Assembly: GCA_002068815.1 (NCBI GenBank)
Contig: MWAC01000100.1
Location: 1 to 13,515, forward strand
Direction of reading: 5' to 3'
Length of the DNA: 13,515 nt
Source of the DNA: Firmicutes bacterium ADurb.Bin467
Lineage (GTDB): Bacteria; Bacillota; Clostridia; Christensenellales; Aristaeellaceae
The translations under genes were made by a program, and so were the position numbers. Shown here in pieces: positions 383-4,056 of this stretch (within the stretch, counting starts at the first letter, position 1; the number at the start of each line of letters is the position of its first letter). The notes under the pieces are model-generated. The model worked only from the letters and a program-made list of their open reading frames with translations. It was not told the DNA's origin and did no database searches.

Positions 383-1195
383 TTACGCGACGGGCGTGAA
401 CGTCGGCACGAAGCCGCGCTCGACGATCAGGTCGTAGACCTTCTGCGTATAGACGACCTTCTCGAGCGCCTTGACGAAGTCGGCGTCCTTGTTCTCGGCC
501 TTGACGGCGAACAGGTTCACGTAGGACCGGCCGGCGAGGCTGTCGGGCTTCTCGGCATAGACGGCGTCGGTGTTCGGGTTGAGCCCGGCGAGCGACGCGT
601 TGTTGCCGTTGATGACCGCGAACGCGACGTCGTCGCGCAGGCCCGGCGTGAGCTCTGCGTTGACCTCGTAGATGTCGAGGTTCTTCGGGTTCAGGTCGCC
701 CACGATGTCGTCCTTCGTGACGACGCTGTTGAGGTCGGTCCCCTCTGGCAGCTTGATCAGCCCGGCGTCCGCGAGCAGTATCAGCGCGCGGGTCAGGTTC
801 GTCGGGTCGTTCGGAACCGCGATGCGGTCGCCGTCCGCGACCTTATCGAGGCTGTCCTTCGTGCCGGGGTAGAGGCCCAGCGGCTCGAAGTGCACCGGGA
901 TCACGCCCGCGAGCTTCTCGGCGTCGCCAACGGACGCGTTGTAGCTGTCCAGATACGGGATGTGCTGGAAGAAGTTCGCCAGCACGTCGCCGCCGGCGGT
1001 CGCGGGGTTCTCGGTCACGTAGTCGGTCACGATCGTCAGATCGAGCTCGTAGCCGAGCGCCGCGAGGTCGTCCTTGACCAGCTCGAGGATCTCGCCGTGC
1101 GGGCTGGGCGTCGCGATGACCGGCAGCGCCTCGGCCATGGCCGCGGCGGACAGGAGAAGCGCCAGGGCGAGCAGAACGGAAACCAGCTTTTTCAT
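383..1195 (-). CDS. metQ: Methionine ABC transporter substrate-binding protein MetQ (NlpA family)
   Basis: This 270-residue protein is the extracytoplasmic receptor of the MetNIQ methionine importer. It captures methionine and delivers it to the MetI channel. The start is the ATG at 1195, seven bases after a perfect AAAGGAGG site. Residues 1-20 form a signal peptide (MKK, hydrophobic LVSVLLALALLLSAAAM) ending in AMA/AEA-type signal peptidase I sites. The mature part carries NlpA-family blocks: ATPSPHGEIL near the N terminus, FFQHIPYLDSYN around 75-90, the IAVPNDPTNLTRAL hinge block, and NGNNASLAGL. Length is normal for MetQ. It is the last gene of the operon, 59 bases after metI, with an intrinsic terminator behind it. 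Oddly there is no lipobox cysteine, although MetQ is usually a lipoprotein. Family assignment is firm; methionine specificity follows from metN/metI and the leader. Confidence 0.93.
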   Translation of the reverse strand: MKKLVSVLLALALLLSAAAMAEALPVIATPSPHGEILELVKDDLAALGYELDLTIVTDYVTENPATAGGDVLANFFQHIPYLDSYNASVGDAEKLAGVIPVHFEPLGLYPGTKDSLDKVADGDRIAVPNDPTNLTRALILLADAGLIKLPEGTDLNSVVTKDDIVGDLNPKNLDIYEVNAELTPGLRDDVAFAVINGNNASLAGLNPNTDAVYAEKPDSLAGRSYVNLFAVKAENKDADFVKALEKVVYTQKVYDLIVERGFVPTFTPVA

Positions 1196-1254: not shown

Positions 1255-1901
1255 CTAGCGGATGCGGTGGTCGAACTTGCGCGTAAAATAGGCGCCCAGC
1301 ATCGTGATGACCTGCACGAGGATGACCAGAATCACGCTCGCGGCGTACATGATGTCGAACTTCCGAAGGTTCAGACCCTTGATGATCGCGAGGCTGCCGA
1401 GTCCCCCGCCGCCCGCGGCCGAGGCCATCGCGGTGTAGGCGAGTATCGTCGTCATGCAGATCGCGAAGCCGTTGATGAGCGAGGGCAGAGCCTCCGGGAT
1501 CAGCACTTTCCGGATGATCTGGAGCGTCGTCGAGCCCATCGACTGCGCGGCCTCGATGATTCCGCCGTCGACCTCGCTGAAGCTGCCCTCGACCATGCGC
1601 GCGACGTAGGGGAACGCGCTGACCGTCAGCGGGAAGATGATCGACTGCGTGCCGATCGCCTTGCCCATCACGATGCGCGTGACCGGGAACAGCATCGCGA
1701 GCAGGATGATGAACGGTATCGAGCGCAGGAAGTTCACGACCGCGCCGAGCACCGTGTTGAACGTCGGCAGAGGCTTGATGCCGCCCTTCCTGGTGATCAC
1801 GAGCAGCACGCCCAGCGGAAGCCCGAGCGCGTAGGCGATCAGCGTCGAGGGAACGGTCATGTAGACGGTCTCGCCGAGCGCCTCCCAGAGGATGTCCCAT
1901 T

Positions 1902-1905
<4 letters not shown>
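1255..1905 (-). CDS. metI: Methionine ABC transporter permease MetI
   Basis: This 216-residue inner-membrane protein forms the channel of the methionine importer as a homodimer. About five hydrophobic helices are visible. The EAA coupling loop that docks on the ATPase reads EAAQSMGSTT followed by LQIIRKVLIPEALPSLINGF, at about residues 135-165. Other MetI-type blocks are FLRSIPFIILL, TVSAFPYVARMVEGSFSEVD and AMASAAGGGGLG. The ATG at 1905 overlaps the metN stop as ATGA and is preceded by GGAGGTG ten bases upstream, within metN, so translation is probably coupled. The length is typical of the family. Assignment is firm from sequence and operon position. Confidence 0.95.
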
Positions 1906-2912
<1,007 letters not shown>

Positions 2913-2941
2913 TTTCGACCGCCCTTTCCGAACTGTTCTGC

Positions 2942-2984
2942 GGAAAAACAAAAACCGCCGGATCGCACGATTGCGAAGCGGCGG
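2942..2984 (-). terminator. Leader terminator (attenuator) ahead of metN
   Basis: On the minus strand CCGCCG (2979-2984) pairs with CGGCGG (2955-2960), with an inner CGCA/TGCG stem, and TTTTTGTTTTT follows at once. It lies downstream of the leader ORF and 30 bases before the metN start, so full-length metNIQ transcription must read through it. Part of its 5' arm and loop (2968-2977) is complementary, with one bulge, to leader codons at 3061-3069, offering an alternative fold. Confidence 0.9.
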
Positions 2985-3028
2985 GTATCCACGGAAAAAA
3001 TTTCAGCGAATGCCGACGGCAACACAAA

Positions 3029-3082
3029 TCACGCGGAGACCGGGCCCGCGCACATGAACATTCGCATCGCACATCGATTCAC
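3029..3082 (-). CDS. Met/Cys-rich leader peptide of the metNIQ attenuator
   Basis: A 17-codon ORF reads MNRCAMRMFMCAGPVSA and stops with TGA. The GTG start at 3082 sits seven bases after GGAGGAGGG, the strongest binding site in the operon. An in-frame ATG at 3100 would add six residues but would use the binding site itself as codons, so GTG is preferred. Codons 6, 8 and 10 are Met and codons 4 and 11 are Cys, an extreme density. The ORF begins about 40 bases after the predicted transcription start and is followed 45 bases later by an intrinsic terminator, then metN. By analogy with trp, his and leu leaders, the inference is that ribosomes slowing at Met codons when charged tRNA-Met is scarce would favour an antiterminated fold. 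The peptide itself probably has no function. GCGAATG across codons 6-8 (3059-3065) is perfectly complementary to CATTCGC (3006-3012) downstream of the stop. Confidence 0.75.
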   Translation of the reverse strand: MNRCAMRMFMCAGPVSA

Positions 3083-3127
3083 GCGCAAACCCTCCTCCAT
3101 GCTTGATATGCCGTCCTTGTTTGCATC

Positions 3128-3156
3128 ATTATATCGTCAATCGCGCGCATTGTCAA
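3128..3156 (-). promoter_or_regulatory. Consensus sigma-70-type promoter of metNIQ
   Basis: TTGACA (3151-3156), a 17-base spacer and TATAAT (3128-3133) match the housekeeping consensus at all twelve positions. Transcription should start near 3121, giving about 210 bases of leader before metN. A promoter this strong with an attenuator behind it suggests control at elongation rather than initiation. Confidence 0.92.
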
Positions 3157-3934: not shown

Positions 3935-4011
3935 TGGCGTCCCCGGCGAGATTCGAACTCACGGCCTTTCGCTTAGGAGGCGAACGCTCTATCCTGCTGA
4001 GCTACGGGGAC
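3935..4011 (-). tRNA. tRNA-Arg, anticodon CCU (CCA end encoded)
   Basis: On the minus strand the cloverleaf is complete: acceptor GTCCCCG/CGGGGAC, D-stem GCTC/GAGC, anticodon stem TTCGC/GCGAA with loop CTCCTAA (anticodon CCT, reading AGG), and T-stem GTGAG/CTCGC with loop TTCGAAT. The discriminator is G and CCA is encoded at 3935-3937. It is a single-gene unit with a consensus promoter and its own terminator. Confidence 0.96.
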
Positions 4012-4027
4012 ATATGGAGCAAAAGCT

Positions 4028-4056
4028 ATTATACGGATTTTGGGCGCGCTTGTCAA
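4028..4056 (-). promoter_or_regulatory. Consensus promoter of tRNA-Arg
   Basis: TTGACA (4051-4056), a 17-base spacer and TATAAT (4028-4033) form a second twelve-of-twelve consensus promoter in this window. It lies 17 bases upstream of the mature tRNA 5' end. Confidence 0.92.

Follow-up and report, generated by a model that had tools for sequence, protein, structure and literature searches.

A Met-rich leader peptide and its putative transcription attenuator upstream of metNIQ in Clostridia

Introduction

How is methionine uptake controlled when the transporter operon is preceded by a short Met-rich reading frame and a terminator? This question is raised by the metNIQ operon in the DNA analysed here, a stretch of 13,515 nucleotides from Firmicutes bacterium ADurb.Bin467 (the window), which belongs to a 1.67-Mb draft genome that is 74% complete. 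Methionine genes in Firmicutes are usually said to be under the control of two kinds of RNA, SAM riboswitches and T-boxes, to which a leader peptide reading Met codons would add a further solution. The classical leader-peptide attenuators are trpL, hisL, thrL and ilvL of Proteobacteria. According to a 2010 survey, His leader peptides are present in bacilli, and no regular leader-peptide system had been known before outside Proteobacteria and Actinobacteria (PMC2965389). A 2005 survey of Actinobacteria describes methionine operons without conserved RNA structure.

The metNIQ Leader

The leader lies on the minus strand, flanked by a nitroreductase-family gene (PF00881) and metNIQ. In the direction of transcription, the order is promoter, 5'UTR, Shine-Dalgarno sequence, leader ORF, intrinsic terminator and metN, and the features are the following.

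3128..3156, minus strand: sigma-70-type promoter TTGACA-17-TATAAT, consensus 12/12
3109..3115, minus strand: 5'UTR strand GACGGCA, with its partner TGCCGTC (3021-3015) in region 2; putative anti-antiterminator when the ribosome is absent
3091..3098, minus strand: Shine-Dalgarno sequence GGAGGAGG, recognized in the sequence, 8 nt ahead of the GTG
3029..3082, minus strand: leader ORF MNRCAMRMFMCAGPVSA, 17 codons, from GTG at 3082 to TGA at 3029
3053..3070, minus strand: region 1, Met-codon cluster GCG-ATG-CGA-ATG-TTC-ATG, presumed stall site
3030..3052, minus strand: hairpin within the ORF tail, TGCGCGG/CCGCGTG, own arms better than swapped ones (0/10000)
3016..3029, minus strand: region 2, ATTTGTGTTGCCGT, 5' strand of the antiterminator, partner at 2982-2971
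2971..2984, minus strand: region 3, the 5' arm of the terminator, common to antiterminator and terminator
2944..2984, minus strand: intrinsic terminator, stem 2984-2955 and U-tract 2954-2944
1902..2912, minus strand: metN, methionine ABC transporter ATPase with NIL domain (PF00005 and PF09383), TTG start at 2912
1255..1905, minus strand: metI, permease (PF00528, BPD_transp_1), named from its position between metN and metQ
383..1195, minus strand: metQ, NlpA/MetQ-type lipoprotein (PF03180)

The original prediction had described a promoter matching the consensus at 12 of 12 positions, a 17-codon ORF with three internal Met and two Cys codons, a terminator and metN, and each of these was found on the minus strand where it had been placed. 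The -35 box TTGACA (3156-3151) and the -10 box TATAAT (3133-3128) are separated by a 17-nt spacer, and similar promoters, as judged by eye, precede the leaders of relatives. A second promoter with a 12/12 consensus (4056-4028) is found before a tRNA-Arg(CCT) gene (window 3935-4056, minus strand). The internal Met residues of the leader ORF are codons 6, 8 and 10 and the Cys residues codons 4 and 11; in region 1, ATGCGAATG is highly conserved across leaders. The folding energy of the leader corresponds to a z of -2.3. This layout exceeds what chance would give, since relatives repeat the combination of ORF, Met codons and terminator, as described below. The best NCBIfam family of metN is TIGR02314, with a score under its cut-off, and metQ also matches NF008285 and TIGR00363, both under cut-off.

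No Rfam family matched the leader, either at the gathering score or at E values up to 5. The S-box (SAM) riboswitch (RF00162) and the T-box (RF00230) both failed the covariance-model match, in line with the absence of these two elements claimed at the outset, and the possibility that the leader is an S-box, a T-box or another Rfam RNA was thus ruled out. The T-box matches of the source genome, seven in total with one above the cut-off, all lie on other contigs.

Distribution and Genomic Context

The leader is present in six of seven genomes of the same genus, the source genome included, and the seventh (G006) has its metN truncated by a contig end. A covariance model built from 16 leaders matches 94 of 300 genomes of the same family at E up to 0.01, the weakest matches being probably due to chance. 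The 84 better-matching loci were fetched (L062-L145), leaving out two strong matches at contig edges (G244:C82 and G168:C41); among the matches weaker than L145, six (L146-L151) were fetched and kept out of the counts, and metN was found by tblastn in none of these six.

At 75 of the 84 loci metN is located downstream of the leader, in one case (L141) with metA (PF04204) in between. The other nine comprise five leaders at contig edges (L065, L066, L067, L128 and L145), where the contig ends at or soon after the leader (in L066 and L145 after the first bases of an ORF), one leader followed by metY-metF (L142, with a metY-like PLP enzyme of Cys/Met metabolism, PF01053, and an MTHFR, PF02219), and three followed by a DUF218 gene (L094, L129 and L130; PF02698, searched in L094 alone). 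From the metA and metY-metF cases it follows that the leader is tied to methionine, beyond metN alone. The DUF218 cases (L094: 201-358; L129 and L130: 201-360) come from three genomes of a single genus (g25), and in L094 the peptide MSNPLITL, resembling the N-terminus of MetN, is encoded a short distance past the terminator, a hint that metN may have been lost or relocated.

A general rule by which all methionine genes would carry such a leader was rejected, since 28 of 30 metA loci lack a Met-rich ORF (the best-scoring 30 of the matches in 137 genomes, with 210 bases before metA in the source genome). The two that pass a loose scan, each with a TTG-start ORF containing three internal Met codons and unlike the AMRM type, are judged to be chance occurrences.

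Conservation of the Met Codons

The number of Met codons was counted in ORFs chosen blindly, taking the first ATG, else GTG, else TTG, after the best Shine-Dalgarno match and ignoring Met content, in the 84 rows minus an antisense row (second match of L083), L092 and L098 (5' cut). A start was found in 75 of these 81 rows and none in six. At least two internal Met codons are present in 69 of the 75 ORFs (mean 3.56), a single one in four, and none in two, in which the start had been picked out of frame. The expectation that orthologous leaders would keep both the ORF and its Met codons is therefore mostly satisfied. An earlier choice, which favoured Met-rich frames and to which 66 of the 75 blind ORFs are identical, gave internal Met in 82 of 82 leaders, 79 of them with at least two, and a mean of 3.8.

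The peptides of the family, exemplified by MNHFAMRMSMCASFLSCCLCCAA and MYRAMRMFMCASIHSCCLCCAA, commonly share the motif AMRMxM, and CGA serves as the Arg codon before Met in 66 of 78 cases (family leaders L062-L145, ORFs of the Met-favouring choice). This CGA is part of the region 1 pairing and might slow the ribosome as well. Three leaders of one genus (g30: L134, L138 and L140) have one internal Met only, with CGA-ATG kept and with region 2 and the terminator persisting; they are possibly a decaying or retuned attenuator.

Alternative RNA Pairings

The pairings among 5'UTR, region 1 (R1), region 2 (R2) and the terminator arms (T5 and T3) were evaluated by a swap test, in which the pairing energy of segments from the same leader is compared with that of segments exchanged between leaders. 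For this purpose, four of the 84 rows were dropped (the L083 antisense match, the contig-cut L128, and L143 and L144 with long gaps), and the remaining 80 were reduced to 37 non-redundant leaders; the counts are raw for each pairing, of which there were 17 in a first set and 9 with tighter segments. Swapped segments never paired as well as the native ones in the terminator, T5:T3 (0/5000, and 0/10000 with tighter segments), in the ORF hairpin (0/10000) and in 5'UTR:R2 (0/5000, weaker with the 14-nt core only, 123/10000). They rarely did so in the antiterminator, R2:T5 (1/5000; R2core:T5, 1/10000), and in R1:R2 (12/5000; R1:R2core alone is weak, 505/10000). Two pairings are borderline, 5'UTR:R1 (139/5000) and R1:post (210/5000), and for the remaining eleven of the 17 and three of the 9 tighter ones the native segments are no better than swapped ones. 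Unsupported pairings include those that would join the terminator arm to the segment following region 2, or region 2 to either the ORF hairpin or the 3' arm of the terminator.

Two alternative pairings had been proposed for the window from inspection of its letters, and they fared differently. GCGAATG (3065-3059) can pair with CATTCGC (3012-3006) in the window, and the corresponding pairing of R1 with the segment after R2core has support across leaders (9/10000 swaps as good). The pairing of 3061-3069 with the terminator arm (R1:T5), on the other hand, is matched by 4311 of 5000 swaps and was abandoned.

The antiterminator, which pairs 3027-3016 with 2982-2971 and was absent from the original prediction, co-varies. 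It was evaluated in an alignment of 84 rows, whose fitting used the terminator, the ORF hairpin and a short helix between regions 1 and 2 of the model, and not the antiterminator itself. Double-change cells number 48 versus 19.4 in shuffled alignments (sd 4.4; 0/500 shuffles), and paired cells amount to 82.0% versus 79.5 (0/500), above all slid registers; two of the five measures, pairs with double changes (89/500) and pair types (133/500), are unremarkable. Base exchanges are exemplified by UUUGUG/CGCAAA, by CUUGG/CCGAA (L100) and by UUUUGC/GCGAAA (L141). When the segment from R2 to T5 is folded, the antiterminator forms in 36 of 37 leaders, the native arms outperforming swapped ones in each of 10000 permutations; even so, about 33 of 37 would still form it with swapped arms, and therefore much of the helix is invariant. 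The mean energies over the 37 leaders are -17.2 kcal/mol for the antiterminator segment and -18.4 kcal/mol for the terminator.

Met-Rich Leaders Outside the Family

In an order-wide search with the family model 20 of 297 genomes match, eight of these matches being outside the family and weak (best E 9.7e-6), so that recurrence outside the family rests on scans of the regions upstream of metN. In public records, 24 of 80 related metN loci are preceded by an ORF that combines a Shine-Dalgarno-like match with three or more internal Met codons. Nine of the 24 are outside the close relatives, with metN only 51-54% identical, and comprise Agathobaculum (four by name), Herbinix hemicellulosilytica, a Lachnospiraceae bacterium and three others; one further leader, seen by eye (L215), has 12 internal Met codons. 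At the same 80 loci, an S-box precedes metN in five, and three T-boxes lie beyond metN.

In a class-wide sample, a strict Met-rich ORF is found in seven of 89 regions upstream of metN; the reverse strand gives none, and 20 shuffles average 0.2 with a maximum of 2. A script located a terminator in four of these seven and found none in three; in the other 82 regions the strict scan detects no Met-rich leader, and some of the 89 are short because of contig ends. In 12 leaders picked from these scans outside the family a lenient search gives a terminator-like hairpin in 12 of 12, and upstream pairing of the bases of the hairpin 5' arm before the terminator is complete ranges from 3/12 to 10/10.

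Proposed Mechanism of Attenuation

The leader has what an attenuator is known by: a short ORF with a ribosome-binding site in the 5' leader, as read from the DNA alone; codons matching the role of the downstream genes (metNIQ, metA and metY-metF, with the three DUF218 cases as exceptions); an intrinsic terminator between ORF and gene; a mutually exclusive antiterminator using the terminator 5' arm; and a structure favouring termination without translation (5'UTR:R2, weaker with the core only). It is very probably a ribosome-mediated transcription attenuator of metNIQ, with charged elongator tRNA-Met as the signal it senses. The leader-peptide attenuation originally suggested for this operon is thus supported, the Met ORF being kept in orthologues and no riboswitch model matching.

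We infer that the leader is translated, that the ribosome stalls in it and in which direction the operon responds, and the cycle would run as follows. With no ribosome on the transcript, the 5'UTR strand (3115-3109) would capture region 2 and the terminator would form. When Met is plentiful, a ribosome reaching the stop codon would mask region 2, leading again to the terminator and to metNIQ being off; its leading edge would presumably lie at 3018 by the usual footprint, covering region 2. When Met is scarce, the ribosome would stall on Met codon 6, 8 or 10 and mask region 1, and at the later Met codons also the 5' arm of the ORF hairpin; region 2 would then be free to pair with the terminator 5' arm, and the resulting antiterminator would allow read-through into metN.

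Folding of the window leader gives a pair probability of 0.96-1.00 for 5'UTR:region 2 without a ribosome. Before completion of the terminator, the mean pair probability of the antiterminator is 0.67 with a stall at codon 6 and 0.63 at codon 10; with a stall at codon 8 it is only 0.03. The segment energies are -19.2 kcal/mol for the antiterminator and -20.0 kcal/mol for the terminator (2986-2953), or -15.7 kcal/mol for the trimmed terminator segment. Once the terminator 3' arm is complete, equilibrium favours the terminator (0.93-1.00) even under a stalled ribosome; hence the switch, if working, would be a kinetic one.

Alternative Explanations

A structured leader (z of -2.3) in which nucleotides are conserved besides amino acids, such as CGA before Met in most cases, could be taken for an RNA aptamer, that is, a new methionine or SAM riboswitch doing the sensing with the ORF incidental. 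This is very unlikely: no Rfam match exists, the conserved nucleotides lie largely within the alternative pairings, and the Met codons and the Shine-Dalgarno sequence persist. Moreover, the leaders outside the family are mostly unlike it in RNA sequence, yet they have Met-rich ORFs again. The same leaders bear on a TnaC-like arrest, in which the nascent peptide in the exit tunnel would bind methionine or SAM. The AMRMxM motif common in the family would fit such a mechanism, but the non-family leaders share richness in Met and no single motif, except for the RMxM of the Agathobaculum type, and the number of Met codons varies inside the family; we consider peptide arrest highly improbable. A non-regulatory ORF that happens by chance to precede a terminator is hardly credible against the conservation, the covariation and the recurrence, and against the class-wide excess over the reverse strand and the shuffles.

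A different matter is whether the proposed attenuator would gauge methionine only, or would be a dual sensor in which stalling on Met or Cys codons responds to a general shortage of sulfur amino acids. Among residues, Cys ranks second in frequency in eight leaders treated as roughly independent, with 25 Cys codons versus 6.25 expected (0/2000 shuffles); the expectation comes from a plain nucleotide shuffle, and the independence of the eight is assumed. Likewise with the ORF choice favouring Met, 36 family leaders contain 102 Cys codons versus 30.4 (0/500), and 44 versus 13.7 after removal of the last seven codons (0/500). The published metL peptide of Streptomyces lividans ends in ...CMCRRMCAF (PMC8079986). 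However, Cys is absent from nine of the 75 blind-chosen ORFs, two of these being out of frame (from seven of 82 leaders with the Met-favouring choice), and the metY-metF leader L142 has none. In addition, the Cys codons at the end of the ORF form part of region 2, and relatives can have Arg, His or Leu in their place, with tails such as LCCAA, LRRAA, LHCAL and LLGLR, so that much of the tail Cys may follow from RNA pairing. Dual sensing is a minority reading. The wider proposal of a Met/Cys leader-peptide attenuator, a gauge of sulfur amino acids that has arisen or been kept before metNIQ in several Clostridia lineages (perhaps also in Streptomyces), separate from S-box (SAM) and T-box, is put forward only tentatively. 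Because initiation needs fMet-tRNA, severe loss of Met would stop initiation on the leader, and 5'UTR:region 2 would shut the operon; if the proposal is true, the Met/Cys gauge would have this fMet-dependent shutdown as a built-in second response.

Relation to Known Systems

On comparative sequence grounds, the leader appears to be a device of a familiar type whose specificity is rare; it recurs in several groups of Clostridia and has good comparative support. Like trpL, hisL, thrL and ilvL, it has a short ORF rich in the regulated amino acid, exclusive 1:2, 2:3 and 3:4 pairings and an intrinsic terminator; unlike them, it would sense methionine, a 5'UTR strand also captures region 2, and it belongs to Clostridia. 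The nearest case is the metL leader upstream of metNIQ in Streptomyces lividans TK24, which likewise encodes a peptide with Met and Cys codons but has 29 codons and a leaderless transcript; a typical Rho-independent terminator is missing there, and termination is left open in that paper (PMC8079986). Its likeness beyond richness in Met and Cys was judged by eye from the published peptide only. Among the open-licence PubMed Central papers searched, this metL is the only earlier Met leader found before metNIQ, and no Met leader peptide was found for Clostridia.

The His leaders of bacilli are also regular attenuators in Firmicutes where others use a T-box, and differ in reading histidine and in belonging to Bacilli (PMC2965389). 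A Met-specific T-box, such as the initiator-tRNA T-box of S. aureus (PMC3771891), senses charging of Met-tRNA like the proposed leader but binds the tRNA directly. The S-box (SAM-I, RF00162) likewise controls methionine genes in Firmicutes and differs in sensing SAM through an aptamer.

The bearers of the leader are largely uncultured gut bacteria, for which the analysis yields a covariance model, along with leader peptides likely overlooked by short-ORF annotation. It also raises the question of an attenuator that would sense the very amino acid its own ribosome needs for starting. The source genome has a single S-box match (G000:C314; L001: 330-433), ahead of metK, which carries S-adenosylmethionine synthetase domains, so that an S-box and a Met leader peptide coexist within one genome; two sensors could be compared there, the SAM level for SAM synthesis and the charging of Met-tRNA for Met uptake.
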